A stretch of 64,000 nt of DNA from Xenopus tropicalis (lineage: Eukaryota; Chordata; Amphibia; Anura; Pipidae): positions 26,897,712 through 26,961,711 of the forward strand of contig NC_030679.2 in the NCBI RefSeq assembly GCF_000004195.4. Direction: 5' to 3'. The position numbers were made by a program, and so were the translations under genes. Of this stretch, positions 6,951 through 57,270 are shown piece by piece (the first letter of the stretch is position 1; each line of letters starts with the position of its first letter). Below the pieces are notes generated by a model, which saw only the letters and a list, made by a program, of their open reading frames with translations, was not told the DNA's origin and searched no databases.

Positions 6951-9900
6951 GATAATAGCCTCTGGGAAGGGACTGGGGCTGTGGAATAGCAGGTATAGTA
7001 GGGAGAGATGGTGCCTATAGTAGCAGTGGGGGGATAATAGCCTCTGGGAAGGGACTGGGGCTGTGGAATAGCAGGTATAGTAGGGAGAGATGGTGCCTAT
7101 AGTAGCAGTGGGGGGATAATAGCCTTTGGGAAGGGACTGGGGCTGTGGGATAGCAGGTATAGTGGAGAGAGATGGTGCATATAGTAGCAGTGGGGGATAA
7201 TAGCCTCTGGGAAGGGACTGGGGCTGTGGGATAGCAGGTATAGTGGAGAGAGATGGTGCCTATAGTAGCAGTGGGGGGATAATAGCCTCTGGGAAGGGAC
7301 TGGGGCTGTGGGATAGCAGGTATAGTAGGGAGAGATGGTGCCTATAGTAGCAGTGGGGGGATAATAGCCTCTGGGAAGGGACTGGGGCTGTGGGATAGCA
7401 GGTATAGTAGGGAGAGATGGTGCCTATAGTAGCAGTGGGGGATAATAGCCTCTGGGAAGGGACTGGGGCTGTGGAATAGAAGGTATAGTAGGGAGAGATG
7501 GTGCCTATAGTAGCAGTGGGGGGATAATAGCCTCTGGGAAGGGACTGTGGCTGTGGGATAGCAGGTATAGTGGAGAGAGATGGTGCATATAGTAGCAGTG
7601 GGGGGATAATAGCCTCTGGGAAGGGACTGGGGCTGTGGGATAGCAGGTATAGTGGAGAGAGATGGTGCCTATAGTAGCAGTGGGGGGATAATAGCCTCTG
7701 GGAAGGGACTGGGGCTGTGGGATAGCAGGTATAGTAGGGAGAGATGGTGCCTACAGTAGCAGTGGGGGGATAATAGCCTCTGGGAAGGGACTGTGGCTGT
7801 GGGATAGCAGGTATAGTAGGGAGAGATGGTGCCTACAGTAGCAGTGGGGGGATAATAGCCTCTGGGAAGGGACTGTGGCTGTGGGATAGCAGGTATAGTA
7901 GGGAGAGATGGTGCCTATAGTAGCAGTGGGGGTATAATAGCCTCTGGGAAGGGACTGGGGCTGTGGGATAACAGGTATAGTAGGGAGATATGGTGCCTAT
8001 AGTATAAGTGGGGGGATAATAGCCTCTGGGAAGGGACTGGGGCTGTGGGATAGATGGTATAGTGGAGAGAGATGGTGCCTATAGTAGCAGTGGGGGGATA
8101 ATAGCCTCTGGGAAGGGACTGGGGCTGTGGGATAGCAGGTATAGTAGGGAGAGATGGTGCCTATAGTAGCAGTGGGATAATAGCCTCTGGGAAGGGACTG
8201 GGGCTGTGGGATAGCAGGTATAGTAGGGAGAGATGGTGCCTATAGTAGCAGTGGGGGTATAATAGCCTCTGGGAAGTGACTGGGCCTGTGGGATAGCAGG
8301 TATAGTGGAGAGAGATGGTGCCTATAGTAGCAGTGGGGGGATAATAGCCTCTGGGAAGGGACTGGGTCTATGGGATAGCAGGTATAGTAGGGAGAGATGG
8401 TGCCTATAGTAGCAGTGGGGGGATAATAGCCTCTGGGAAGGGACTGTGGCTGTGGGATAGCAGGTATAGTAGGGAGAGATGGTGCCTATAGTAGCAGTGG
8501 GGGGATAATAGCCTCTGGGAAGGGACTGGGGCTGTGGGATAGCAGGTATAGTAGGGAGAGATGGTGCCTATAGTAGCAGTGGGGGTATAATAGCCTCTGG
8601 GAAGGGACTGGGGCTGTGGGATAGCAGGTATAGTGGAGAGAGATGGTGCCTATAGTAGCAGTGGGGGGATAATAGCCTCTGGGAAGGGACTGGGTCTGTG
8701 GGATAGCAGGTATAGTAGGGAGAGATGGTGCCTATAGTAGCAGTGGGGGGATAATAGCCTCTGGGAAGGGACTGGGGCTGTGGGATAGCAGGTATAGTAG
8801 GGAGAGATGGTGCCTATAGTAGCAGTGGGATAATAGCCTCTGGGAAGGGACTGTGGCTGTGGGATAGCAGATATAGTAGGGAGAGATGGTGCCTATAGTA
8901 GCAGTGGGGGGATAATAGCCTCTGGGAAGGGACTGGGGCTGTGGGATAGCAGGTATAGTAGGGAGAGATGGTGCCTACAGTAACAGTGGGGGATAATAGC
9001 CTCTGGGAAGGGACTCTGGCTGTGGGATAGCAGGTATAGTAGGGAGAGATGGTGCCTATAGTAGCAGTGGGGGGATAATAGCCTCTGGGAAGGGACTGTG
9101 GCTGTGGGATAGCAGGTATAATAAGGAGAGATGGTGCCTACAGTAACAGTGGGGGGATAATAGCCTCTGGGAAGGGACTGTGGCTGTGGGATAGCAGGTA
9201 TAGTAGGGAGAGATGGTGCCTATAGTAGCAGTGGGATAATAGCCTCTGGGAAGGGACTGTGGCTGTGGGATAGCAGGTATAGTAGGGAGAGATGGTGCCT
9301 ATAGTAGCAGTGGGATAATAGCCTCTGGGAAGGGACTGTGGCTGTGGGATAGCAGGTATAGTAGGGAGAGATGGTGCCTATAGTAGCAGTGGGGGTATAA
9401 TAGCCTCTGGGAAGGGAATGGGGCTGTGGGATAGCAGGTATAGTAGGGAGAGATGGTGCCTATAGTAGCAGTGGGGGTATAATAGCCTCTGGGAAGGGAC
9501 TGGGCCTGTGGGATAGCAGGTATAGTAGGGAGAGATGGTGCCTATAGTAGCAGTGGGGGGATAATAGCCTCTGGGAAGGGAATGGGGCTGTGGGATAGCA
9601 GGTATAGTAGGGAGAGATGGTGCCTATAGTAGCAGTGGGGGGATAATAGCCTCTGGGAAGGGACTGGGGCTGTGGGATAGCAGGTATAGTAGGGAGAGAT
9701 GGTGCCTATAGTAGCAGTGGGGGGATAATAGCCTCTGGGAAGGGACTGTGGCTGTGGGATAGCAGGTATAGTAGGGAGAGATGGTGCCTATAGTAGCAGT
9801 GGGATAATAGCCTCTGGGAAGGGACTGGGGCTGTGGGATAGCAGGTATAGTAGGGAGAGATGGTGCCTATAGTAGCAGTGGGATAATAGCCTCTGGGAAG

Positions 9901-12900
9901 GGACTGTGGCTGTGGGATAGCAGGTATAGTAGGGAGAGATGGTGCCTATAGTAGCAGTGGGATAATAGCCTCTGGGAAGGGACTGTGGCTGTGGGATAGC
10001 AGGTATAGTAGGGAGAGATGGTGCCTATAGTAGCAGTGGGATAATAGCCTCTGGGAAGGGACTGTGGCTGTGGGATAGCAGGTATAGTAGGGAGAGATGG
10101 TGCCTATAGTAGCAGTGGGGGTATAATAGCCTCTGGGAAGGGAATGGGGCTGTGGGATAGCAGGTATAGTAGGGAGAGATGGTGCCTATAGTAGCAGTGG
10201 GGGTATAATAGCCTCTGGGAAGGGACTGGGCCTGTGGGATAGCAGGTATAGTAGGGAGAGATGGTGCCTATAGTAGCAGTGGGGGGATAATAGCCTCTGG
10301 GAAGGGAATGGGGCTGTGGGATAGCAGGTATAGTAGGGAGAGATGGTGCCTATAGTAGCAGTGGGGGGATAATAGCCTCTGGGAAGGGACTGGGGCTGTG
10401 GGATAGCAGGTATAGTAGGGAGAGATGGTGCCTATAGTAGCAGTGGGGGGATAATAGCCTCTGGGAAGGGACTGTGGCTGTGGGATAGCAGGTATAGTAG
10501 GGAGAGATGGTGCCTATAGTAGCAGTGGGATAATAGCCTCTGGGAAGGGACTGGGGCTGTGGGATAGCAGGTATAGTAGGGAGAGATGTTGCCTATAGTA
10601 GCAGTGGGGGGATAATAGCCTCTGGGAAGGGACTGGGGCTGTGGGATAGCAGGTATAGTAGGGAGAGATGGTGCCTATAGTAGCAGTGGGATAATAGCCT
10701 CTGGGAAGGGACTGTGGCTGTGGGATAGCAGGTATAGTAGGGAGAGATGGTGCCTATAGTAGCAGTGGGGGGATAATAGCCTCTGGGAAGGGACTGTGGC
10801 TGTGGGATAGCAGGTATAATAAGGAGAGATGGTGCCTACAGTAACAGTGGGGGGATAATAGCCTCTGGGAAGGGACTGTGGCTGTGGGATAGCAGGTATA
10901 GTAGGGAGAGATGGTGCCTATAGTAGCAGTGGGATAATAGCCTCTGGGAAGGGACTGTGGCTGTGGGATAGCAGGTATAGTAGGGAGAGATGGTGCCTAT
11001 AGTAGCAGTGGGATAATAGCCTCTGGGAAGGGACTGTGGCTGTGGGATAGCAGGTATAGTAGGGAGAGATGGTGCCTATAGTAGCAGTGGGGGTATAATA
11101 GCCTCTGGGAAGGGAATGGGGCTGTGGGATAGCAGGTATAGTAGGGAGAGATGGTGCCTATAGTAGCAGTGGGGGTATAATAGCCTCTGGGAAGGGACTG
11201 GGCCTGTGGGATAGCAGGTATAGTAGGGAGAGATGGTGCCTATAGTAGCAGTGGGGGGATAATAGCCTCTGGGAAGGGAATGGGGCTGTGGGATAGCAGG
11301 TATAGTAGGGAGAGATGGTGCCTATAGTAGCAGTGGGGGGATAATAGCCTCTGGGAAGGGACTGGGGCTGTGGGATAGCAGGTATAGTAGGGAGAGATGG
11401 TGCCTATAGTAGCAGTGGGGGGATAATAGCCTCTGGGAAGGGACTGTGGCTGTGGGATAGCAGGTATAGTAGGGAGAGATGGTGCCTATAGTAGCAGTGG
11501 GATAATAGCCTCTGGAAGGGACTGGGGCTGTGGGATAGCAGGTATAGTAGGGAGAGATGTTGCCTATAGTAGCAGTGGGGGGATAATAGCCTCTGGGAAG
11601 GGACTGGGGCTGTGGGATAGCAGGTATAGTAGGGAGAGATGGTGCCTATAGTAGCAGTGGGATAATAGCCTCTGGGAAGGGACTGGGGCTGTGGGATAGC
11701 AGGTATAGTAGGGAGAGATGGTGCCTATAGTAGCAGTGGGGGGATAATAGCCTCTGGGAAGGGACTGTGGCTGTGGGATAGCAGGTATAGTAGGGAGAGA
11801 TGGTGCCTATAGTAGCAGTGGGATAATAGCCTCTGGGAAGGGACTGGGGCTGTGGGATAGCAGGTATAGTAGGGAGAGATGGTGCCTATAGTAGCAGTGG
11901 GGGGATAATAGCCTCTGGGAAGGGACTGTGGCTGTGGGATAGCAGGTATAGTAGGGAGAGATGGTGCCTATAGTAGCAGTGGGATAATAGCCTCTGGGAA
12001 GGGACTGGGGCTGTGGGATAGCAGGTATAGTAGGGAGAGATGGTGCCTATAGTAGCAGTGGGATAATAGCCTCTGGGAAGGGACTGGGGCTGTGGGATAG
12101 CAGGTATAGTAGGGAGAGATGTTGCCTATAGTAGCAGTGGGGGGATAATAGCCTCTGGGAAGGGACTGTGGCTGTGGGATAGCAGGTATAGTAGGGAGAG
12201 ATGGTGCCTATAGTAGCAGTGGGATAATAGCCTCTGGGAAGGGACTGGGGCTGTGGGATAGCAGGTATAGTAGGGAGAGATGGTGCCTATAGTAGCAGTG
12301 GGGGGATAATAGCCTCTGGGAAGGGACTGGGGCTGTGGAATAGAAGGTATAGTAGGGAGAGATGGTGCCTATAGTAGCAGTGGGGGATAATAGCCTCTGG
12401 GAAGGGACTGGGGCTGTGGGATAGCAGGTATAGTGGAGAGAGATGGTGCATATAGTAGCAGTGGGGGGATAATAGCCTCTGGGAAGGGACTGGGGCTGTG
12501 GAATAGAAGGTATAGTAGGGAGAGATGGTGCCTATAGTAGCAGTGGGGGGATAATAGCCTCTGGGAAGGGACTGGGGCTGTGGGATAGCAGGTATAGTGG
12601 AGAGAGATGGTGCATATAGTAGCAGTGGGGGGATAATAGCTTCTGGGAAGGGACTGGGGCTGTGGGATAGCAGGTATAGTGGAGAGAGATGGTGCCTATA
12701 GTAGCAGTGGGGGGATAATAGCCTCTGGGAAGGGACTGTGGCTGTGGGATAGCAGGTATAGTAGGGAGAGATGGTGCCTACAGTAGCAGTGGGGGGATAA
12801 TAGCCTCTGGGAAGGGACTGTGGCTGTGGGATAGCAGGTATAGTAGGGAGAGATGGTGCCTATAGTAGCAGTGGGGGGATAATAGCCTCTGGGAAGGGAC

Positions 12901-15900
12901 TGTGGCTGTGGGATAGCAGGTATAGTAGGGAGAGATGGTGCCTATAGTAGCAGTGGGGGTATAATAGCCTCTGGGAAGGGACTGGGGCTGTGGGATAACA
13001 GGTATAGTAGGGGAGATATGGTGCCTATAGTATAAGTGGGGGGATAATAGCCTCTGGGAAGGGACTGGGGCTGTGGGATAGCAGGTATAGTAGGGAGAGA
13101 TGGTGCCTATAGTAGCAGTGGGGGGATAATAGCCTCTGGGAAGGGATTGTGGCTGTGGGATAGCAGGTATAGTAGGGAGAGATGGTGCCTATAGTAGCAG
13201 TGGGGGTATAATAGCCTCTGGGAAGGGACTGGGGCTGTGGGATAACAGGTATAGTAGGGAGATATGGTGCCTATAGTATAAGTGGGGGGATAATAGCCTC
13301 TGGGAAGGGACTGGGGCTGTGGGATAGATGGTATAGTGGAGAGAGATGGTGCCTATAGTAGCAGTGGGGGGATAATAGCCTCTGGGAAGGGACTGGGGCT
13401 GTGGGATAGCAGGTATAGTAGGGAGAGATGGTGCCTATAGTAGCAGTGGGGGGATAATAGCCTCTGGGAAGGGACTGGGGCTGTGGGATAGCAGGTATAG
13501 TAGGGAGAGATGGTGCCTATAGTAGCAGTGGGGGGATAATAGCCTCTGGGAAGGGACTGTGGCTGTGGGATAGCAGGTATAGTAGGGAGAGATGGTGCCT
13601 ATAGTAGCAGTGGGGGGATAATAGCCTCTGGGAAGGGACTGGGGCTGTGGGATAGCAGGTATAGTAGGGAGAGATGGTGCCTATAGTAGCAGTGGGGGTA
13701 TAATAGCCTCTGGGAAGGGACTGGGGCTGTGGGATAGCAGGTATAGTGGAGAGAGATGGTGCCTATAGTAGCAGTGGGGGGATAATAGCCTCTGGGAAGG
13801 GACTGGGTCTGTGGGATAGCAGGTATAGTAGGGAGAGATGGTGCCTATAGTAGCAGTGGGGGATAATAGCCTCTGGGAAGGGACTGGGGCTGTGGGATAG
13901 CAGGTATAGTAGGGAGAGATGGTGCCTACAGTAACAGTGGGGGATAATAGCCTCTGGGAAGGGACTCTGGCTGTGGGATAGCAGGTATAGTAGGGAGAGA
14001 TGGTGCCTATAGTAGCAGTGGGGGGATAATAGCCTCTGGGAAGGGACTGTGGCTGTGGGATAGCAGGTATAATAAGGAGAGATGGTGCCTACAGTAACAG
14101 TGGGGGGATAATAGCCTCTGGGAAGGGACTGTGGCTGTGGGATAGCAGGTATAGTAGGGAGAGATGGTGCCTATAGTAGCAGTGGGATAATAGCCTCTGG
14201 GAAGGGACTGTGGCTGTGGGATAGCAGGTATAGTAGGGAGAGATGGTGCCTATAGTAGCAGTGGGGGTATAATAGCCTCTGGGAAGGGAATGGGGCTGTG
14301 GGATAGCAGGTATAGTAGGGAGAGATGGTGCCTATAGTAGCAGTGGGGGTATAATAGCCTCTGGGAAGGGACTGGGCCTGTGGGATAGCAGGTATAGTAG
14401 GGAGAGATGGTGCCTATAGTAGCAGTGGGGGGATAATAGCCTCTGGGAAGGGAATGGGGCTGTGGGATAGCAGGTATAGTAGGGAGAGATGGTGCCTATA
14501 GTAGCAGTGGGGGGATAATAGCCTCTGGGAAGGGACTGGGGCTGTGGAATAGCAGGTATAGTAGGGAGAGATGGTGCCTATAGTAGCAGTGGGGGGATAA
14601 TAGCCTCTGGGAAGGGACTGTGGCTGTGGGATAGCAGGTATAGTAGGGAGAGATGGTGCCTATAGTAGCAGTGGGATAATAGCCTCTGGGAAGGGACTGG
14701 GGCTGTGGGATAGCAGGTATAGTAGGGAGAGATGTTGCCTATAGTAGCAGTGGGGGGATAATAGCCTCTGGGAAGGGACTGGGGCTGTGGGATAGCAGGT
14801 ATAGTAGGGAGAGATGGTGCCTATAGTAGCAGTGGGATAATAGCCTCTGGGAAGGGACTGGGGCTGTGGGATAGCAGGTATAGTAGGGAGAGATGGTGCC
14901 TATAGTAGCAGTGGGATAATAGCCTCTGGGAAGGGACTGGGGCTGTGGGATAGCAGGTATAGTAGGGAGAGATGGTGCCTATAGTAGCAGTGGGATAATA
15001 GCCTCTGGGAAGGGACTGGGGCTGTGGGATAGCAGGTATAGTAGGGAGAGATGTTGCCTATAGTAGCAGTGGGGGGATAATAGCCTCTGGGAAGGGACTG
15101 GGGCTGTGGGATAGCAGGTATAGTAGGGAGAGATGGTGCCTATAGTAGCAGTGGGATAATAGCCTCTGGGAAGGGACTGGGGCTGTGGGATAGCAGGTAT
15201 AGTAGGGAGAGATGTTGCCTATAGTAGCAGTGGGGGGATAATAGCCTCTGGGAAGGGACTGTGGCTGTGGGATAGCAGGTATAGTAGGGAGAGATGGTGC
15301 CTATAGTAGCAGTGGGATAATAGCCTCTGGGAAGGGACTGGGGCTGTGGGATAGCAGGTATAGTAGGGAGAGATGGTGCCTATAGTAGCAGTGGGGGGAT
15401 AATAGCCTCTGGGAAGGGACTGGGGCTGTGGGATAGCAGGTATAGTAGGGAGAGATGGTGCCTATAGTAGCAGTGGGGGGATAATAGATGCTGGGAAGGG
15501 ACTGGGGCTGTAGGATAGCAGGTATAGTAGGGAGATATGGTGCCTATAGTATAAGTGGGGGGATAATAGCCTCTGGGAAGGGACTGGGGCTGTGGGATAG
15601 CAGGTATAGTAGAGAGAGATGGTGCCTATAGTAGCAGTGGGGATAATAGCCTCTGGGAAGGGACTGTGGCTGTGGGATAGCAGGTATAGTAGGGAGAGAT
15701 GGTGCCTATAGTAGCAGTGGGGATAATAGCCTCTGGGAAGGGACTGTGGCTGTGGGATAGCAGGTATAGTAGGGAGAGATGGTGCCTATAGTAGCAGTGG
15801 GGATAATAGCCTCTGGGAAGGGACTGTGGCTGTGGGATAGCAGGTATAGTAGGGAGAGATGGTGCCTATAGTAGCAGTGGGGATAATAGCCTCTGGGAAG

Positions 15901-18900
15901 GGACTGGGGCTGTGGGATAGCAGGTATAGTAGGGAGAGATGGTGCCTATAGTAGCAGTGGGGGGATAATAGCCTCTGGGAAGGGACTGGGGCTGTGGGAT
16001 AGCAGGTATAGTAGGGAGAGATGGTGCCTATAGTAGCAGTGGGGGGATAATAGATGCTGGGAAGGGACTGGGGCTGTAGGATAGCAGGTATAGTAGGGAG
16101 AGATGGTGCCTATAGTAGCAGTGGGGGGATAATAGCCTCTGGGAAGGGACTGGGGCTGTGGGATAGCAGGTATAGTAGGGAGAGATGGTGCCTATAGTAG
16201 CAGTGGGGGGATAATAGCCTCTGGGAAGGGACTGGGGCTGTGGGATAGCAGGTATAGTAGGGAGAGATGGTGCCTATAGTAGCAGTGGGGGGATAATAGA
16301 TGCTGGGAAGGGACTGGGGCTGTAGGATAGCAGGTATAGTAGGGAGAGATGGTGCCTATAGTAGCAGTGGGGGGATAATAGCCTCTGGGAAGGGACTGGG
16401 GCTGTGGGATAGCAGGTATAGTAGGGAGAGATGGTGCCTATAGTATCAGTGGGGGGATAATAGCCTCTGGGAAGGGACTGGGGCTGTGGGATAGCAGGTA
16501 TAGTAGGGAGAGATGGTGCCTATAGTAGCAGTGGGGGGATAATAGCCTCTGGGAAGGGACTGTGGCTGTGGAATAGCAGGTATAGTAGGGAGAGATGGTG
16601 CCTATAGTAGCAGTGGGGGGATAATAGCCTCTGGGAAGGGACTGTGGCTGTGGGATAGCAGGTATAGTAGGGAGAGATGGTGCCTATAGTAGCAGTGGGG
16701 GGATAATAGCCTCTGGGAAGGGACTGTGGCTGTGGGATAGCAGGTATAGTAGGGAGAGATGTTGCCTATAGTAGCAGTGGGGGGATAATAGCCTCTGGGA
16801 AGGGACTGTGGCTGTGGGATAGCAGGTATAGTAGGGAGAGATGGTGCCTATAGTAGCAGTGGGATAATAGCCTCTGGGAAGGGACTGGGGCTGTGGGATA
16901 GCAGGTATAGTAGGGAAGATGGTGCCTATAGTAGCAGTGGGGGGATAATAGCCTCTGGGAAGGGACTGGGGCTGTGGGATAGCAGGTATAGTAGGGAGAG
17001 ATGGTGCCTATAGTAGCAGTGGGGGATAATAGATGCTGGGAAGGGACTGGGCTGTAGGATAGCAGGTATAGTAGGAGATATGGTGCCTATAGTATAAGTG
17101 GGGGGATAATAGCCTCTGGGAAGGGACTGGGCTGTGGGATAGCAGGTATAGTAGAGGAGATGGTGCCTATAGTAGCAGTGGGGATAATAGCCTCTGGGAA
17201 GGGACTGTGGGCTGTGGGGATAGCAGGTATAGTAGGGAGAGATGGTGCCTATAGTAGCAGTGGGGATAATAGCCTCTGGGAAGGGACTGTGGCTGTGGGA
17301 TAGCAGGTATAGTAGGGAGAGATGGTGCCTATAGTAGCAGTGGGGATAATAGCCTCTGGGAAGGGACTGTGGCTGTGGGATAGCAGGTATAGTAGGGAGA
17401 GATGGTGCCTATAGTAGCAGTGGGGATAATAGCCTCTGGGAAGGGACTGGGGCTGTGGGATAGCAGGTATAGTAGGGAGAGATGGTGCCTATAGTAGCAG
17501 TGGGGGGATAATAGCCTCTGGGAAGGGACTGGGGCTGTGGGATAGCAGGTATAGTAGGGAGAGATGGTGGCCTATAGTAGCAGTGGGGGATAATAGATGC
17601 TGGGAAGGGACTGGGGCTGTAGGATTGCAGGTATAGTAGGGAGAGATGGTGCCTATAGTAGCAGTGGGGGGGATAATAGTCTCTGGGAAGGGACTGGGGC
17701 TGTGGGATAGCAGGTATAGTAGGGAGAGATGGTGCCTATAGTAGCAGTGGGGGGGATAATAGCCTCTGGGAAGGGACTGGGGCTGTGGGATAGCAGGTAT
17801 AGTAGGGAGAGATGGTGCCTATAGTAGCAGTGGGGGGATAATAGCCTCTGGGAAGGGACTGTGGCTGTGGAATAGCAGGTATAGTAGGGAGAGATGGTGC
17901 CTATAGTAGCAGTGGGGGGATAATAGCCTCTGGGAAGGGACTGTGGCTGTGGGATAGCAGGTATAGTAGGGAGAGATGGTGCCTATAGTAGCAGTGGGGG
18001 ATAATAGCCTCTGGGAAGGGACTGTGGCTGTGGGATAGCAGGTATAGTAGGGAGAGATGGTGCCTATAGTAGCAGTGGGGGGATAATAGCCTCTGGGAAG
18101 GGACTGTGGCTGTGGGATAGCAGGTATAGTAGGGAGAGATGGTGCCTATAGTAGCAGTGGGGGGGATAATAGCCTCTGGGAAGGGACTGGGGCTGTGGGA
18201 TAGCAGGTATAGTAGGGAGAGATGGTGCCTATAGTAGCAGTGGGGATAATAGCCTCTGGAAGGGACTGTGGCTGTGGATAGCAGGTATAGTAGGGAGAGA
18301 TGGTGCCTATAGTAGCAGTGGGGGGATAATAGATGCTGGGAAGGGACTGGGGGCTGTAGGATAGCAGGTATAGTAGGGAGAGATGGTGCCTATAGTAGCA
18401 GTGGGGGGATAATAGCCTCTGGGAAGGGACTGTGGCTGTGGGATAGCAGGTATAGTAGGGAGAGATGGTGCCTATAGTAGCAGTGGGGGGATAATAGCCT
18501 CTGGAAGGGACTGTGGCTGTGGGATAGCAGGTATAGTAGGGAGAGATGGTGCCTATAGTAGCAGTGGGGATAATAGCCTCTGGGAAGGGACTGTGGCTGT
18601 GGGATAGCAGGTATAGTAGGGAGAGATGGTGCCTATAGTAGCAGTGGGGATAATAGCCTCTGGGAAGGGACTGGGGCTGTGGGATAGCAGGTATAGTAGG
18701 GAGAGATGGTGCCTATAGTAGCAGTGGGGGGATAATAGATGCTGGGAAGGGACTGGGGCTGTAGGATAGCAGGTATAGTAGGGAGAGATGGTGCCTATAG
18801 TAGCAGTGGGGGATAATAGGCCTCTGGAAGGGACTGTGGCTGTGGGATAGCAGGTATAGTAGAGAGAGATGGTGCCTATAGTAGCAGTGGGGATAATAGC

Positions 18901-19176
18901 CTCTGGGAAGGGACTGTGGCTGTGGGATAGCAGGTATAGTAGGGAGAGATGGTGCCTATAGTAGCAGTGGGGATAATAGCCTCTGGGAAGGGACTGGGGC
19001 TGTGGGATAGCAGGTATAGTAGGGAGAGATGGTGTCTATAGTAGCAGTGGGGGGATAATAGCCTCTGGGAAGGGACTGTGGCTGTGGGATAGCAGGTATA
19101 GTAGGGAGAGATGGTGCCTATAGTAGCAGTGGGGGGATAATAGATGCTGGGAAGGGACTGGGGCTGTGGGATAGCA
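6951..19176. repeat. 12.2-kb minisatellite, about 150 units of 77-82 bp
   Basis: The typical unit starts GATAATAGCCTCTGGGAAGG and continues through ATAGCAGGTATAGTAGGG and GATGGTGCCTATAGTAGC to a G run of variable length. GATAATAGCC at 6951 and 7033 gives an 82-bp period; units ending in a short G run are 77-79 bp. Units fall into classes marked by ACTGGGG versus ACTGTGG, TAGTGGAGAG versus TAGTAGGGAG, ATAATAAGG, and TAGATGCTGGG. Ordered sets of variants recur, so the array has higher-order structure. The left end is at the boundary with TATATGTA; the right end fades after the last GGGATAGCA. A 127-codon minus-strand frame at its right end is an artefact of the repeat. Confidence 0.98.
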
Positions 19177-20339
19177 TGGTTTAGGTAAAGCTGACTATAC
19201 ACAGATAGATCATTTGATTGTCGTAGATCTTTACCTGATTTGACCACTGACTGAACCATAATTGTGGCATAGTCAGACCCTTTTGTAGAGGACTGAACTA
19301 AGATGTTGATGCAGTTCTTTTGAGAAATACCTGCCCGACTGATATCTGGTCAGTTCTCACACAGATATTGGCTGGGCAGGACATTGGTTTGTGTCTACTC
19401 AAGGGTTTATAATCTAATGACTGAATCTGGAGGGCAGTATCATATTGACCATCTCATGGCTAGCTTAAGATGGTGTCTACGATAGAACTTTCAGCAGTCT
19501 GTGAGACTTTGTAGTAATGGGAATAATAGCCCTGTAGGGACTGTATAGGAGACTCTGGGTGTGCAATTGCAGTACAGCAGTACAAGGTGGCGCCACTGAG
19601 ACAACATGGTAACACTGTATCAGCACTGCCAAACCTCAGAACTTTAAAGTACAGTTTCCATCATCACTGTCAACTGATGAAAGTTGGAATTCAATAGCAC
19701 CAGAAGGGCCACAGACTAGGCAGTCCTACTCTATAAACACAATGGGGCCTGCAAACTGGCAAGGCATTAGTTATATAAAGATGGTCTCCCTTTGTCTGTG
19801 TTCATACCCCCAGACCTGAATCCTGGGTTAAAAATTCCTTCCAGCAATCTGCTCGGAGCCGGTGGAAGAGAAAAGACTATTACCTCCAGAATGTTTTTAC
19901 TCGCTGCAAAGCAGTAATGCAGAATAGCTACGGTTTAATTTCTGTTCAGTGCACTGTGGATAATTACAATGGTTTACTTTATGCTCAGTGTAGCTAATTC
20001 CAGCATAGGTATGGGAGTGGGAGCGTGTGATTGCAGAGAGCAATCGTGAATGAGAAGGACTGTGCAATACTATTTTCCTCCTATGGCATTAATTCTATTT
20101 TAGTGCTGCATATTTTTAGTTGGATTGCAGCAAAGTGTTGAGCAATGTGCTGTTGTTCCGCTAGCAGGATCTGAAGCTGAACAGTAGTGAGGGTGCTTGT
20201 GTTTCTCCAACTCACCCAGCACCCTTTGGCTAGGGGGCATGCCCAATACCATTGCCAGTAGATATCCCTGCCATCTCTGCTGACTCCATCCATCCCATGT
20301 ATATTGGATCCTATTTTCTCCCTGGCACAAAACATCATC
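19177..20339. other. Apparently single-copy non-coding stretch
   Basis: No repeat family, RNA gene or convincing coding region was recognised. Two overlapping minus-strand frames at 20081-20353 show no family signature. Confidence 0.45.
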
Positions 20340-23407: not shown

Positions 23408-23553
23408 CTTACTCTTATAACAAAATGTTCCAAAATCTCAAAAGTACTACATGGAAACTTATTGTAGCAGTGGAATATGTATTCACAAAGTACTCTGCTT
23501 TCTTCCCTACATTAAAATCATACCAGCAAGTTAATTGGTTTCTGGTAGTGGAG

Positions 23554-24549
23554 TGTAGCCCACCTGTGCAGACACTGTGGTACTACTTGCTTACTTGGCG
23601 CTACAGGAGCCCTGAGCCCCCGCTTACTGTGGGGGACAGGCGTTTCCCAGCAATGGCGTGCCTCCACCCAGGGATGATGTTGTGGAACTATATCCACCCC
23701 CTGGGAACTTAATAGGTTTCTATGCCCCTCTTGGGACCCACGTACCCCTGGCAGATGTACCCCTCCCTGGGGTTGTTTCTTACCAACGTGGTAGTGGTCC
23801 TCTGGGCTTGGCAGATGCTCAGGTACACAGACACAATAGTTGTAGTTGAACTAGATGCACGGTTTATTAGGCAGGGTCCTCTCCAGGAGTGGCAAACATA
23901 GTATTGGTACACAGTGCAGGGCATATCTCCTTACTACTCATTGATACTCATTTTCTGTTGGACTACTTCACGGTACTCCCGCCACATGCTCCCATCTAGG
24001 AAACCTTCCCGGTACTCTCGGCAGAGGCACCCCCTCTTGGAGCCCTCCCCGGTACTCACGCTAGAAGCATTTCCACAAGGACCCATACCGGTACTCACAT
24101 GAAGCATCCTCAAATCCGAGATCCTGGACTAGTGGTGCCTTGGTACACCTTCCCTAGCCACTTGTGGCCCTGCACTCCAGCAGATGTAACGCTGGGAGGT
24201 CATAACCTCACTACCACTCCTGGAGGGGTCATGTCTGCCCATTCTAACCTACTTTGTTCTACATATTACTCCTAGAGCAATCTATTACCAGAACTTCTAA
24301 CTAAGCAGTACCTGGGGTACTCCTGCCTGGAGCAGTGCCCAAGATGTCTGCCTGACTGACCCTCAGCACATGGCTGCTATCCCTTATATGGGCCTATGCA
24401 CCACCCTGTGGCCATAACCCGAACTACAGGTGTACACCCTATTAACTATTGACAACCCAGTCATCCCAGTGTCCCTGTTTCCCAGCACCACCCTGTGGTC
24501 TGTCCTAGGGGTTCCTGTCCTAAGGGCCCGTTTTTGGTAAACCCCTACA
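23554..24549 (-). repeat. 3' LTR (996 bp) of the retroelement
   Basis: The ends are TGTAG...CTACA on either strand. Every checked landmark is offset by exactly 3,378 bp from the other LTR, and I saw no difference between the two. On the minus strand, CATATAAGG at about 24382-24390 is a plausible TATA box and AATAAA at 23863-23868 a plausible poly(A) signal. That implies a short U3 of about 160 bp, an R region of about 500 bp and a U5 of about 300 bp. Confidence 0.93.
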
Positions 24550-24561
24550 TTCTCCCCCTAC
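24550..24561 (-). other. Polypurine tract
   Basis: On the minus strand the 12 bases directly before the 3' LTR read GTAGGGGGAGAA, 11 of 12 purines. This is the expected site for plus-strand primer in an LTR element transcribed leftward, and it independently fixes orientation. Confidence 0.75.
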
Positions 24562-24631
24562 AAGAAAATTGTCACCTCCTGGCTGACACACATTCTACTA
24601 AATACAATACATTTACCATGTTGTTTTCACA

Positions 24632-25111
24632 TCACGCTTCACAGCTCCTCCAGGAGACTGCCAGGGTACAATGGATGACTGAAAAGGAAAAGTGAGACAT
24701 AACACATTCCCACCCTCCAAAGTCTTTGTGAAAGTCCCCACAAGAGTCTCTGTCCCTTAGACATTTCACACTGAAACAAGAGAAAGGACAACTTATTGCC
24801 CAAAAAATCAAAACAATTTCTTTATTTTTCAGCAAAGAAAATAATAGAAAGACTTTCTTTTCCTGGCCCTCCCCTCCTCCTTGAGGGAGTCCAAGATCCC
24901 AAGGTGCTCCCACCTTGGGCCTGCATATCCACCGATTGTGGTAACTTGCAAACTGGAGCCCTCCTGGGCTAACTTTCACAGCTCCCCTATGGGAATCAAC
25001 TGGAGCAGTCCTCACTCCAGGCCATCCGGCTGGCTGCGGTGTGGGTTTCCTTTCCACCCCCAACAGTTCCTTCCTTGGGAAAGTGAGTCTCTCCTTGAGA
25101 GTACACCCCAA
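24632..25111 (-). other. Minor open frame downstream of the main retroelement ORF
   Basis: A frame of up to 159 codons lies between the main ORF stop and the polypurine tract, in a different frame from the main ORF. I recognise no Env, accessory or enzyme signature. It has one hydrophobic stretch (VLIFWAISCPFSCF) and several cysteines. It may be 3' untranslated sequence that is open by chance; a spliced or frameshifted product cannot be excluded. Confidence 0.2.
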
Positions 25112-25178
25112 CTGTGGGTGCTGCTCCCTTTAACTGAAAACTCCCCGCATGGGGTTGATGGATGCCTCCTGAGGCTAC

Positions 25179-26594
25179 TCACACCATGTATCCAAACCGC
25201 AATTTAATATCTTCATACGGTGCGTAGTAGTTAGGATGGGGTTTCTCTACCCGCTCCCCATTTGGCAAATCTACTTCCACACTGAAGTACCTGGACTCTG
25301 GGTGCTTGCGCCCACAGCTGTGGACAGTATGGCGCAGGACTGTGCGCCCCCACCACCACTCTTTCTCTATTGAGCGGATGAATCTTTTGGCAGCCATCCT
25401 CTTTCCCTCATCTGGATGTAACAAGGCACGGCCTACCTTTTTCTCTTTAGAGGTGATTTCTGCTTTCACCCAATCATCCATCATGGATTCCATCTTGTCA
25501 TATACCCACAGTGGGGCATATGGCATAAAATACCCCCATAGGCGAAAGATTTTATAGTTCATGACCCTCTGGATTCTAGAAACTCTGCAGAATATATCAG
25601 GGTCAGCTTTCCCTGGAAGAACCCAAAAGTCTTTTTCTTCCTCTTTAGGGATCTTTCTTGGGGCATAACATGGGTCAGGTAATTTAAACAACTGAGGGCT
25701 ATAGACATCCTCCTCTTCAGGGTCATCCCCTTTCTCATCCACTCTGGAAGTATTGCTGCTGGCAGACCCACGGGCCCCCACTGATGGCTTAGCCCCTACC
25801 CTGATAACCTCTCTGTAGGCTGGGGGTTCCGGAGTCCCTGGGGACTTCTCTCCGGTTTGGGCTGCGGTGGCCTCACTCTCCACCTGAGCAGAAATGGGCA
25901 GCTCCCTCTGGGGTGTGCTATCCGGGCCCTGGGGCATAGGTATGGCACCTTGGATGACAGGCAAGCCGGGCGCAGGCCCGCTCCCTTCTCCCTCCCCTTC
26001 TGGAGTAACTGGCCGGGACCCCTCTTTCACCCCCTCCGGGGCTACAGGGCTCTCATCCCTTGTGGGCACATTATCAGTAACCGCCTCTAACTCGGGTACT
26101 AGCACGGGTATCACGGGGGCCTCCGCCGCTTGGGCGTCATCACTCACCTCCGAGTGCCCGCTGTGCTGTGAGGAGCTGAACTTTCCATTGCTCAGTTGGA
26201 ACAGCAGCGCCAGCGTCGCGCTGTGCCCATGGCTCTTGGCTTCATCTTTAAAGGGGCCCATCCAACATCGATGGCCGCAGTGGTCACAGCGCCCTGTGGG
26301 GTGAGTCAAGGCCATGCGCGCCTCCTCTCCACACTCGCCGCATAGTGGGACCATTTGGGGCTCCCCCCTTGTAGTGGTCTGTTCAGCAAAGGACCCGAGC
26401 CACACATAGCGAACGCCGCCGTCATAAGCTAGCTGGTAAGTAAGCTGCACCGGTAGGGACTCAAGGCCCGCGCTACCGCACACTTTTGGCACAGGTGTCT
26501 CCATGGTATCATACAGCAGCCAGTCGCACACCCTGCTCACGCTGTGTAGTACTTGGAACTGATCCAAAATGGCCCCCGTGACGTCAGGTCGCAT
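25179..26594 (-). CDS. Single retroelement protein, 471 aa, Gag-position, unknown function
   Basis: This is the only substantial ORF of the LTR element. The frame is open from 26612, but that first codon is GTG. The first ATG is at 26594 and has A at -3, so I start there. Domains in order: a hydrophobic N-terminal part (about 1-80); a zinc-ribbon-like C-x2-C-x14-C-x2-C motif (Cys85, 88, 103, 106); a Pro/Glu/Gly-rich, low-complexity acidic linker (about 145-300) carrying PPAY at 257-260; and a basic, Trp/Tyr-rich C-terminal part (about 320-471) with a WWWGR stretch. PPxY is a known late-domain motif of retroviral Gag proteins that recruits Nedd4-type ligases, and the ORF sits in Gag position. 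However, there is no CCHC knuckle and I recognise no capsid or matrix fold. It could be a diverged Gag, an accessory protein or captured host sequence. No premature stop is seen. Confidence 0.75.
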   Translation of the reverse strand: MRPDVTGAILDQFQVLHSVSRVCDWLLYDTMETPVPKVCGSAGLESLPVQLTYQLAYDGGVRYVWLGSFAEQTTTRGEPQMVPLCGECGEEARMALTHPTGRCDHCGHRCWMGPFKDEAKSHGHSATLALLFQLSNGKFSSSQHSGHSEVSDDAQAAEAPVIPVLVPELEAVTDNVPTRDESPVAPEGVKEGSRPVTPEGEGEGSGPAPGLPVIQGAIPMPQGPDSTPQRELPISAQVESEATAAQTGEKSPGTPEPPAYREVIRVGAKPSVGARGSASSNTSRVDEKGDDPEEEDVYSPQLFKLPDPCYAPRKIPKEEEKDFWVLPGKADPDIFCRVSRIQRVMNYKIFRLWGYFMPYAPLWVYDKMESMMDDWVKAEITSKEKKVGRALLHPDEGKRMAAKRFIRSIEKEWWWGRTVLRHTVHSCGRKHPESRYFSVEVDLPNGERVEKPHPNYYAPYEDIKLRFGYMV

Positions 26595-26911
26595 CGTCAC
26601 TCCCTGGCTCACTGGCGCCCTTTCTAAGGCTTCTTATTGGCCGGCCTCACGGGGCGGTCAATAGGCAAATCAAGGGCGCGTCACCCTCTGGCACGCCCCT
26701 ATTTCACGTGTCTTCCCCGGCTCTCTCTTTGGCGCCCACTTGCCTGCAATCCTATTGGCAGGAGCTGCCTTGCTCCTCTTTGGCGCCAAATCCCCCCTTG
26801 GGGATGCGGATCAGGGTGGCCCAAATCTAGCCCGGTCGGGAAAAAGGGTTTCACAGACACACTAGGCCTCAGTTCCTTTAGAGCCCGGTCTGCTAAACGG
26901 TTCCTGCTCTC

Positions 26912-26929
26912 ATCTCAGCAGTGCCTCCA
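26912..26929 (-). other. Primer binding site, tRNA-Thr type
   Basis: Two bases inside the 5' LTR the minus strand reads TGGAGGCACTGCTGAGAT. From memory, the 3' end of vertebrate tRNA-Thr (ending GCGGTGCCTCCA) would give TGGAGGCACCGCTGGGAT, a match at 16 of 18 positions. Position, spacing and TGG start all fit a retroelement primer site. tRNA identity should be confirmed against the frog tRNA set. Confidence 0.75.
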
Positions 26930-26931
26930 AA

Positions 26932-27927
26932 TGTAGCCCACCTGTGCAGACACTGTGGTACTACTTGCTTACTTGGCGCTACAGGAGCCCTGAGCCCCCG
27001 CTTACTGTGGGGGACAGGCGTTTCCCAGCAATGGCGTGCCTCCACCCAGGGATGATGTTGTGGAACTATATCCACCCCCTGGGAACTTAATAGGTTTCTA
27101 TGCCCCTCTTGGGACCCACGTACCCCTGGCAGATGTACCCCTCCCTGGGGTTGTTTCTTACCAACGTGGTAGTGGTCCTCTGGGCTTGGCAGATGCTCAG
27201 GTACACAGACACAATAGTTGTAGTTGAACTAGATGCACGGTTTATTAGGCAGGGTCCTCTCCAGGAGTGGCAAACATAGTATTGGTACACAGTGCAGGGC
27301 ATATCTCCTTACTACTCATTGATACTCATTTTCTGTTGGACTACTTCACGGTACTCCCGCCACATGCTCCCATCTAGGAAACCTTCCCGGTACTCTCGGC
27401 AGAGGCACCCCCTCTTGGAGCCCTCCCCGGTACTCACGCTAGAAGCATTTCCACAAGGACCCATACCGGTACTCACATGAAGCATCCTCAAATCCGAGAT
27501 CCTGGACTAGTGGTGCCTTGGTACACCTTCCCTAGCCACTTGTGGCCCTGCACTCCAGCAGATGTAACGCTGGGAGGTCATAACCTCACTACCACTCCTG
27601 GAGGGGTCATGTCTGCCCATTCTAACCTACTTTGTTCTACATATTACTCCTAGAGCAATCTATTACCAGAACTTCTAACTAAGCAGTACCTGGGGTACTC
27701 CTGCCTGGAGCAGTGCCCAAGATGTCTGCCTGACTGACCCTCAGCACATGGCTGCTATCCCTTATATGGGCCTATGCACCACCCTGTGGCCATAACCCGA
27801 ACTACAGGTGTACACCCTATTAACTATTGACAACCCAGTCATCCCAGTGTCCCTGTTTCCCAGCACCACCCTGTGGTCTGTCCTAGGGGTTCCTGTCCTA
27901 AGGGCCCGTTTTTGGTAAACCCCTACA
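26932..27927 (-). repeat. 5' LTR (996 bp) of the retroelement
   Basis: Direct repeat of 23554-24549 with the same length. It starts TGTAGCCCACCTG on the plus strand and ends CCCCTACA, followed by the TSD GGAG. It drives minus-strand transcription into the ORF. The predicted TATA-like word and poly(A) signal lie at the same relative positions as in the other copy. Confidence 0.93.
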
Positions 27928-27931
27928 GGAG

Positions 27932-32889: not shown

Positions 32890-33310
32890 GGGCAGCTGAA
32901 GTATACCCGGCACCTATATGTCACAATGCTATTGCCATTCCTGCTGGCTGTACTGAAGCTACGGTAACTGCACACAGGCAGTCTCTGCTGAGCTGAATGA
33001 GAGCCAATCAGATTTCAGTGATGTCACTGCCTGTGCCGGATCCTCTTACAGCTCAGATAGAGAATATGCAGCACAGTCATGCGGGCTGGCCATATAGCTC
33101 AGCGGTTCCTTCTCAAAACTCTGATTTAAACAGACCAATCCTCTCGGGGGTTTGAAACCCGCGGGCGCTATCCAGCCTTTTTACATTTATTTTGCTCACT
33201 TATGTTTTGTAAATAAATATTTTTACTAATACAGTGTCAGCCTGATTAGTACAAAAAATCAAGCTGCCAACTGAGGCTGTTTAGCCAAATATGCATTCTC
33301 TGTAAAGCAA
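32890..33310 (+). repeat. Dispersed repeat carrying a tRNA-like cassette, copy 1
   Basis: Shared with 56590-56990 over both flanks of the cassette: GCTATTGCCATTCCTGCTGG upstream and GTCAGCCTGATTAGTAC downstream. The tRNA-like part sits in the middle rather than at the 5' end as in a standard tRNA-derived SINE. Exact element ends were not found. Confidence 0.7.
33083..33177 (+). ncRNA. tRNA-like cassette with A and B boxes, copy 1
   Basis: It starts GGGCTGG and ends CCAGCC, which pair as an acceptor-like stem. TATAGCTCAGCGG matches an A box and GGGTTTGAAACCCG a B box and T-arm. A T5 run follows directly, as in pol III terminators. It is about 95 nt, longer than most tRNAs, and I could not build a convincing anticodon arm. 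I call it tRNA-like rather than a functional tRNA gene. Confidence 0.65.
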
Positions 33311-36337: not shown

Positions 36338-36724
36338 ACCCCCCAGTGACTCTAATCTCTTATCTCCACCCTCAGGCTTCTGCTCCTTCGCTTTAAAGCA
36401 GAATGCACCTGCCCAGGGTGTTTCCTGTAGAACAGGCTGGCACCCTCTTGCCCTAAACTCCCAGGAATCCTCTGAGTGAGTTCAGACTTGACATGTACAT
36501 TTTCTGTCCTGGGAGCCCGGGCAAGATGGCAGGAGCCTGCTCTGCAGGACAGTACCCTAACACTTTTTATAAAAGAGGATCTCCAGCTCAAATTCTCTTG
36601 CCTGACTTTTCTGAAGAATGAAGTTTGAATAAACTTCCCCTTAGACATGGCAGGACCAAGGTTCTAATAAATCAGCTAACACTGTTTTTACTGGATTTAC
36701 AAAATGCAACAGGAAAAATAAAAA

Positions 36725-36819
36725 GGCTGGATAGCGCCCGCAGGTTTTGAACCCCCGAGAGGATTAGTCTGATAAATCAGAGAGCCCGTGAAGGAACCGC
36801 TGAGCTACAATGCCAGCCC
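36725..36819 (-). ncRNA. tRNA-like cassette, copy 2
   Basis: On the minus strand it begins GGGCTGGCATTGTAGCTCAG and ends in GCTATCCAGCC, followed by TTTTTA. The B box is GGGGGTTCAAAACCTGC. The A box carries TGTAGCTCAGCGG. Same architecture as copy 1. Confidence 0.6.
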
Positions 36820-37776: not shown

Positions 37777-38450
37777 AAAGCTCTGATGAGGGGCTCTACC
37801 TTAAACCCCCCAGTGACTCTAATCTCTTATCTCCACCCTCAGGCTTCTGCACCTTCGCTTTAAAGCAGAATGCACCTGCCCAGGGTGTTTCCTGTAGAAC
37901 AGACTGGCACCATCTTGCCCCAAACTCCCAGCAAACCCTCTGAGTGAGTTCAGACTTGACACGTACATTTTCTGTCCTGGGAGCCCGGGGCAAGATGGCA
38001 GGAGCCTGCTCTGCAGGACAGTACCCTAACACTTTTTATAAAAGAGGATCTCCAGCTCAGTTCACTGCTCCTGTTAGTGTACAAATTCTCTTGCCTGACT
38101 TTTCTGAAGAATGAAGTTTGAATAAACTTCCCCTTAGACATGGCAGCTAACCCTGTTTTTACTGGATTTACAAAATGTAATCGGAAAAATAAAAAGGCTG
38201 GATATCGCCCGCAGGTTTTGAACCCCCGAGAGGATTAGTCTGATAAATCAGAGAGCCCGTGAAGGAACTGCTGAGCTACAATGCCAACCCGTATGCTGTG
38301 CCAGAATATTCTCTATCTGAGTTATAACAGGATCCCATACAGGCAGTGCCGTACTGACTGGGCTCATTCTGTTTAGCAGAGGCTGCCTGTGTACTGGGAA
38401 GTTATGTTTAGTTGTACATATCGGCATAGATCTCTTTGCATATGGGGCTT
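37777..38450. repeat. Duplicated block, right copy (empty site for the MITE)
   Basis: Collinear with 35956-36950 but lacks the 35978-36333 insert: GGCTCTACC is joined directly to TTAAACCCCCCAGTGAC at 37792-37815. Small differences include an extra CAGTTCACTGCTCCTGTTAG near 38058. It retains its tRNA-like cassette at 38196-38290. Confidence 0.8.
38196..38290 (-). ncRNA. tRNA-like cassette, copy 3
   Basis: The minus strand reads GGGTTGGCATTGTAGCTCAG to GGCGATATCCAGCC and then TTTTTA. The A box is present (TGTAGCTCAGCAG, one change from copy 2). The B box is GGGTTCAAAACC. Parallel to copy 2 within the duplicated block. Confidence 0.58.
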
Positions 38451-56589: not shown

Positions 56590-56990
56590 TGAAGTTCACA
56601 ATGCTATTGCCATTCCTGCTGGCTGTACTGAAGCTACGGTAACTGCACACAGGCAGTCTTTGCTGGGCTGAATGAGAACCAATGAGATTTCAGTGATGTC
56701 ACTGCCTGTGCCGGATCCTCTTACAGCTCAGATAGAGAATATGCAGCACAATCACATGGGCTGGCCATATAGCTCAGCGGTTCCTTCTTGAGCTCTCTGT
56801 TTACTACCAGACCAATCCTCTCGGGGGTTTGAAACCCGCGGGCGCTATCTAGCCCTTTTAACATTTCATTTTCCCACTTCTATTTTGTAAATACATATGT
56901 TTACTAATACAGTGTCAGCCTGATTAGTACATAAAATCAAGCTGCCAACTGAGGCTGTTTAGCCAAATATATATTCTCTGCAAAGCATGC
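56590..56990 (+). repeat. Dispersed repeat with tRNA-like cassette, copy 4
   Basis: Closely matches 32890-33310 on both sides of the cassette: GCTGTACTGAAGCTACGGTA, GAGATTTCAGTGATGTCACT and GTCAGCCTGATTAGTAC. It is immediately followed by a second, more diverged cassette-bearing copy. Confidence 0.75.
56758..56855 (+). ncRNA. tRNA-like cassette, copy 4 (best acceptor pairing)
   Basis: It starts GGGCTGG and ends CTAGCCC, giving a 7-bp acceptor-like stem with one G-U. The A box is TATAGCTCAGCGG and the B box and T-arm GGGGTTTGAAACCCGC. TTTT follows directly. About 98 nt long. Same family as copies 1-3 and 5. Confidence 0.65.
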
Positions 56991-57084: not shown

Positions 57085-57177
57085 GGGCTGGCAATATAGC
57101 TCAGCGGTTCCTTCACATGCTTTCTGGTTTCAGAATAATCCTTTTGGGGGTTCAAAACCCGCGGGTGCTATCCAGCC
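57085..57177 (+). ncRNA. tRNA-like cassette, copy 5
   Basis: GGGCTGGCAATATAGCTCAG to GGTGCTATCCAGCC, then TTTTTA. The B box is GGGGGTTCAAAACCCGC. Its downstream flank (ATTTTTCCTATTACATTTTG) matches copies 2 and 3, while its neighbour copy 4 has the flank of copy 1. Confidence 0.62.
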
Positions 57178-57270
57178 TTTTTATTTTTCCTATTACATTT
57201 TGTAAATCCACATTTTTACTGTTACCGTGTTAGCTTATATAATAGAACCTCGGTCCTGCCGTGTCTCAGG

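Follow-up and report, generated by a model that had tools for sequence, protein, structure and literature searches.

A recently inserted, pol-less long terminal repeat element of Xenopus tropicalis and purifying selection on its open reading frame

Results

An intact long terminal repeat element without pol

We analysed a stretch of 64,000 nucleotides of Xenopus tropicalis DNA (contig NC_030679.2, positions 26,897,712 to 26,961,711; hereafter the window), which contains an intact, recently inserted long terminal repeat (LTR) element without pol at 23554-27927 on the minus strand (Table 1). Its two LTRs, 996 bp each, align base by base with zero mismatches; they start with TGTAG and end with CTACA, and the repeat match stops at both LTR borders. 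A 4-bp target-site duplication (TSD), GGAG, stands at both outer edges. Read on the minus strand after the 5' LTR, the 2382-bp internal region consists of TT, a primer site (TGGAGGCACTGCTGAGAT), a leader, an open reading frame (ORF), a 3' untranslated region (UTR) and a polypurine tract (AGGGGGAGAA) that immediately precedes the 3' LTR. We take TGGAGGCACTGCTGAGAT, provisionally as regards the identity of the tRNA, to match the 3' end of tRNA-Thr. Paired LTRs with TG...CA ends, TSD, primer site and polypurine tract are the features of an LTR retrotransposon, and an exact 996-bp repeat in their company is not a product of chance. The insertion is very recent because both LTRs are identical, and the same identity rules out an old or decayed element. 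A first-pass annotation, made from the letters alone, had read the LTRs as identical, seen GGAG on both sides and deduced a minus orientation from the primer site and polypurine tract; the alignment gave no mismatch, the TSD is present at both ends, and both signals sit as expected on the minus strand. Within the window, neither LTR nor internal region has a match outside the element.

The longest open frame spans 25179-26612 on the minus strand and has 477 codons from a GTG (as called by a bacterial-code ORF finder), or 471 when counted from the first ATG (26594). The second-longest internal minus-strand frame (24632-25129, 165 codons) has no Pfam match; as a candidate for a further coding frame within the 3' UTR it was rejected, being shorter in 5/5 relatives checked. 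Pfam found no protease, reverse transcriptase or integrase in these two frames, only a sub-threshold zinc-ribbon match, in agreement with the earlier remark that the only long ORF is not pol.

Table 1. Features of the LTR element, in window coordinates
Feature	Position	Strand	Basis or remark
TSD GGAG, left copy	23550..23553	none	sequence
3' LTR, 996 bp, TGTAG...CTACA	23554..24549	-	identical to other LTR
Polypurine tract AGGGGGAGAA, adjoins 3' LTR	24550..24559	-	sequence
Conserved ~210-nt block, internal 3' end	24550..24760	-	90-100% per 50-column stretch, subfamilies A/B/C
3' UTR, 629 nt	24550..25178	-	ORF end to 3' LTR
ORF, 471 residues from first ATG, plus stop	25179..26594	-	purifying selection
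Conserved C-terminal domain, residues 301-471	25182..25694	-	pN/pS 0.036-0.039
PPAY (PPxY-type) motif in variable linker	25815..25826	-	ORF comparison
Zinc-ribbon-like region, Cys 85, 88, 103, 106 (and 110)	26265..26342	-	weak sub-cut-off Pfam match
Leader, 5' LTR to first ATG	26595..26931	-	sequence
Primer-binding site TGGAGGCACTGCTGAGAT	26912..26929	-	sequence; presumed tRNA-Thr match
5' LTR, 996 bp; TATAA at LTR base 162, AATAAA at 682	26932..27927	-	sequence
TSD GGAG, right copy	27928..27931	none	sequence

The pol-less layout is common to divergent subfamilies

We searched one assembly containing the window (1,451,301,209 bases, 167 contigs). The window LTR gave 1962 candidates, of which the best 40 were scored. 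Among these we counted 15 neighbour spacings, 14 of them between 2191 and 3385 bases and the fifteenth (4690) joining a separate LTR fragment, and 13 matches without a listed neighbour. The LTR of a related subfamily, C, gave 2049 candidates; the best 40 include 11 pairs spaced 2182-3374 bases and 18 matches without a neighbour, one of which was sampled (C3, 97.41 Mb) and has its 3' LTR starting ~3.36 kb downstream. No LTR pair wide enough for pol occurs in either set of 40.

Eighteen regions taken from the window-LTR matches were compared in structure. Twelve contain LTR pairs; in 11 the two LTRs are 99.1-100% identical, in one (L022) 86%, so that the youth ascribed to the window element by the first-pass annotation extends to most of these pairs. 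Four-base TSDs flank 11 of these 12 pairs and, judged by their flanks, 5/5 solo LTRs. Two loci, L021 and L026, are LTR-internal-LTR-internal-LTR tandems with neighbouring LTRs 99.5-99.8% identical, and probably arose by unequal recombination. Another, L009, has LTRs 99-100% identical to those of the window element around a shortened internal region that is only 81-85% identical; it is likely a recombinant. Among 30 ORF-bearing loci (which overlap several of the 18 regions, include the window copy and count two tandems twice), the primer motif is present in 30/30 and flanking direct repeats, cut by the locus ends, in 29/30, at least 98.3% identical in 27/30. The primer motif occurs 242 times genome-wide and its reversed control 0 times.

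The same 3.4-kb layout is common to three subfamilies (A, B and C), including relatives whose ORFs are as little as 53% identical; L057 and L058 have it as well, with LTR pairs 99.4% and 99.7% identical. Between subfamilies the ORFs differ at a synonymous divergence per site (dS) of 1.3-2.0 and a nonsynonymous divergence (dN) of 0.33-0.37. The absence of pol thus holds for a kind of element and not for one deleted copy: a one-off deletion is ruled out by the recurrence of the layout in divergent subfamilies, and the full-length gag-pol relative named beforehand as the finding that would overturn the claim is missing among the LTR pairs seen, which lie 2.2-3.4 kb apart. A related explanation is that the family derives by simple internal deletion from an autonomous retroelement, with the ORF as its gag and pol lost recently. 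Shortened family copies do exist (L009 and L019), and the ORF occupies the position expected of gag. Nevertheless, we regard this explanation as unlikely: three subfamilies separated by such dS values have one common layout without pol, which makes the pol-less state look old, and Pfam found no pol or retroelement domain in the ten Xenopus laevis homologs of the ORF protein that we scanned (four matches, all sub-cut-off).

Strong purifying selection acts on the ORF

The earlier reader had suggested that selection may act on the ORF, and comparison of copies upholds this. In pairwise comparison with the ORFs of five young copies (L010, L012, L013, L015 and L016), the window ORF shows 7-9 synonymous changes and 1-3 nonsynonymous ones; in comparison with L017 it shows 9 and 6; the counts are 20.5 and 12.5 for the older copy L021 and 26 and 21 for the older L026. 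Seven copies of subfamily A carry 24 synonymous and 9 nonsynonymous changes, a ratio of nonsynonymous to synonymous polymorphism per site (pN/pS) of 0.116, and 12 copies of subfamily B carry 108 and 62 (pN/pS 0.177); the binomial P values, 3e-9 and 2e-28, assume that changes found in related copies arose independently. Adding three older copies to A raises pN/pS to 0.245. We left out of the selection counts L037-L043, whose frames are broken or altered, and L056, the only subfamily-C copy among L027-L056.

The constraint is unevenly spread along the protein. In 10 A and 12 B copies, respectively, pN/pS is 0.34 and 0.25 in the N-terminal 58 residues, 0.11 and 0.073 in the zinc ribbon, 0.49 and 0.45 in the linker, and 0.039 and 0.036 in the C-terminal domain. 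Among the seven A copies synonymous sites have a diversity of 7.2% and nonsynonymous sites one of 0.8%; the corresponding figures are 5.1% for the LTR, 4.9% for the leader and 2.0-3.7% for the 3' UTR. A CpG artefact was considered and rejected, as the low ratio persists outside CpG contexts (0.078 in the seven A copies, 0.166 in the 12 B copies). Sampling only open frames does introduce a bias, but alone should not yield this deficit of amino-acid changes. We conclude that purifying selection acts strongly on the ORF in both subfamilies.

Selection of this kind might also reflect host co-option, in which a small number of source loci would keep the ORF for a function in the frog embryo and would recently have given rise to the other copies. 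There is a precedent of sorts in xretpos(L), a pol-less LTR element of X. laevis for which excerpts of PMC4585706 describe embryonic expression and a reported posterior-ventralizing activity. However, we see selection among many dispersed copies in two subfamilies, and many divergent frames that are open simultaneously fit selection on the element better than selection on a single host gene. Co-option seems to us very improbable.

The ORF protein and its relatives

The protein joins a motif that resembles a zinc ribbon to a conserved C-terminal domain (~170 residues) through a variable linker. The motif, CxxC...CxxC at residues 85-110, matches the Pfam zinc ribbon PF03604 below cut-off (E 0.018). 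A PPxY motif is present in 20 of 25 ORFs examined and missing from the three of subfamily C; a late-domain role for it would be a guess. Sequence searches of the PDB gave nothing convincing.

Within the assembly, a search with the window ORF gave 89 matches (the best 89 of 1178 candidates). They include open frames at 48-55% identity, which fall into several subfamilies. A search with the X. laevis homolog P0019 yielded 108 matches at 97 places (from 1113 candidates), and none of these places lies within 5 kb of any window-ORF place. No internal stop interrupts 77/89 window-ORF matches and 88/108 P0019 matches, counts that cover the best candidates only, which favours intact frames, and in which fragments are counted as matches. 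On contigs C1-C3 the exact primer motif stands upstream at 23/24 window-ORF places vs 0/39 P0019 places, and more than one type of primer is therefore probably in use across the ORF family.

Database searches returned 24 relatives in one search and 29 in another. Those that bear a name, 23 in the first and 29 in the second, are hypothetical proteins of X. laevis without exception; the remaining record, P0018, is nameless. Seven aligned X. laevis homologs are 30-46% identical to the window ORF, which suggests that the lineage is old. Four of the homologs (P0025, P0026, P0030 and P0034) are 931-1041 residues long, with ~400 extra N-terminal residues, and no Pfam domain was found in 7/7 long homologs. 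The extension seems to us to recall PNMA-like sequences; Pfam gave no match at E up to 1. With the N-terminal part of P0034 as query we obtained only X. laevis proteins and one record, P0035, 88% identical to that part and named Protopolystoma xenopodis, which we take to be a parasite of Xenopus. P0035 is a probable host contamination, or else a transfer. In the collection viral_contigs, 20 stretches fit a pattern, with no relative among them.

Subfamilies are mosaics of divergent ORFs and similar backbones

Subfamilies B and C differ in their ORFs at dS 1.27-1.45. Comparing one copy of each (L044 and L056; ORF dS 1.27), the LTR is 92-94% identical, the leader 95% and the 3' UTR 82%, vs 53-77% for parts of the ORF. 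Tree distances between B and C are likewise ~0.08-0.12 for LTR plus leader vs ~0.65-0.7 for the ORF. Between L027 (subfamily A) and L056 (C) the 3' UTR is 87% identical and ORF parts 55-71%. The last 211 nt ahead of the 3' LTR are 95-100% identical among the best 40 of 208 candidates, an identity that extends to elements whose ORFs match at 51-53%; in L057 and L058 this block is 94-95% identical. Its predicted RNA fold is no better than that of shuffles (z 0.21).

Template switching between co-packaged RNAs would best account for this pattern. Constraint on the non-coding parts is a possible alternative source; within subfamily B, 13% of LTR columns are variable vs 33% of synonymous sites, a gap that falls far short of the B-C contrast. 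The near-common leader and 3' block of some ORF subfamilies also mean that one protein could serve many, and hence that the ORF might be a trans-acting helper for the whole element class with no preference for its own RNA. We consider this distinctly unlikely. Without linkage to their own RNA, broken ORFs should spread equally, whereas stop-free matches prevail (77/89 and 88/108).

Discussion

A probably trans-mobilised lineage that keeps its own protein

We consider it probable that these elements form a long-lived, pol-less 'satellite' LTR lineage of Xenopus, mobilised in trans, whose protein acts mainly on its own RNA. We infer mobilisation in trans from three features together: the element is young, the pol-less layout belongs to the kind, and the ORF is under selection. 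In the life cycle that we propose, (i) an autonomous element with a tRNA-Thr primer and 4-bp duplications would supply enzymes in trans; (ii) these enzymes would reverse-transcribe and integrate the pol-less RNA; (iii) the ORF product would be a packaging or adaptor protein, either Gag-like or RNA-binding; and (iv) copies with broken ORFs would leave fewer descendants, because the product would work mainly on the RNA that encodes it. Co-packaged RNAs would also recombine by template switching, which would spread LTR, leader and 3' block among ORF lineages.

A wider claim is conceivable, but we hold it only tentatively. It would make the family an ancient, self-sustaining class of satellite retroelements, with probably hundreds of copies in this one frog, whose orphan zinc-ribbon protein does not come from a known gag and recruits enzymes made by unrelated retroelements to the RNA that encodes it; lineages would persist by swapping LTR and 3' cassettes, like helper-dependent satellite viruses.

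Several points weigh against the trans-mobilised satellite lineage as we describe it. No autonomous partner appears among the best 40 of 1962 and 40 of 2049 LTR candidates. On C1-C3, 74 of the 97 primer sites listed are not near a listed window-ORF place, and two of these 74 were sampled: at one, 671 bases taken from 2.1 kb downstream match 0/7 family loci compared, and the other has a second LTR and the usual 3.36-kb layout. AlphaFold models of the ORF have mean predicted local distance difference test scores of 51.9 and 57.4, no solved fold matches these poor models at E <0.001, and Pfam gives no gag or zinc-knuckle match in the window ORF; with poor models and no fold match, 'Gag-like' is a guess. 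The P values for selection take related copies as independent, and conservation of the ORF could come from few source copies or a host role.

Relation to known elements

Pol-less LTR elements as a kind are already known from X. laevis. Excerpts of PMC4585706 describe 1a11, lambda-olt 2-1 and xretpos(L) as pol-less, embryo-expressed LTR elements with one ORF, and cite 15-30 ORF copies and from ~200 to hundreds of LTRs. The elements named there correspond to GenBank entries L11263, AF145965 and AF057166. By these descriptions they and the window element are all Xenopus LTR elements without pol. The same excerpts attribute a 71-kDa Gag-like protein to 1a11, a size that roughly fits a group of X. 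laevis homologs of 529-676 residues, and a tRNA-Arg primer to xretpos(L). The window element has TGGAGGCACTGCTGAGAT instead, tRNA-Thr-like on our assumption above. One published primer from the lambda-olt 2-1 LTR does not occur in the loci compared, which says little across species.

XtERV-S of X. tropicalis is, according to excerpts of PMC8278194, an 8-kb gag-pol-env element with 705-bp LTRs and a tRNA-Ser primer, whose related copies have a 5-bp TSD. It resembles the window element as a young LTR element of the same species with TGT...ACA ends; the 4-bp TSD and lack of pol set the window element apart from XtERV-S and from ERV-L-like (class III) elements. As a candidate partner XtERV-S was rejected for its different TSD length and primer tRNA. 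The earlier X. tropicalis LTR-element census, as excerpts of PMC4131045 present it, classified elements by reverse-transcriptase domains, so pol-less elements would tend to be missed. Excerpts of the main text of PMC11980090 have no mention of 1a11 or 'non-autonomous'. The first-pass annotation had recognised no described family; our literature search, with Repbase outside its scope, found nothing on this ORF family in X. tropicalis among the papers listed, and the pol-less kind has its precedent in X. laevis.

LARD, TRIM, BARE-2, MaLR and ETn are non-autonomous LTR retrotransposons that have LTRs, a primer site, a polypurine tract and a TSD, lack pol and are moved in trans. The Xenopus lineage resembles them in these structural features and, unlike them, keeps a strongly constrained ORF without a recognised gag domain across divergent subfamilies whose backbones have been exchanged. 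Non-autonomous retroelements are usually viewed as decaying passengers. Here strong purifying selection preserves the one protein of a pol-less lineage in the two subfamilies tested, and open homologs of its ORF are found at many other sites in this genome as well as in a second species of frog. Such a lineage opens to experiment the question of how a parasite of a parasite ties a working protein to the RNA that encodes it.

Other features of the window and loci

At another locus, L059 (G000:C1:3948330-3949000), an open frame appears, by eye only, to resemble the ligand-binding part of a V2R/calcium-sensing-type receptor. Within the window, a satellite array occupies 6951-19184, with an 82-bp unit in ~150 copies, 95% matches and strong GC skew. 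Five Rfam vault RNA matches, all above gathering score, lie at 33083-33182, 56758-56859 and 57085-57182 on the plus strand and at 36720-36819 and 38191-38290 on the minus strand, and form a vault RNA cluster on both strands.
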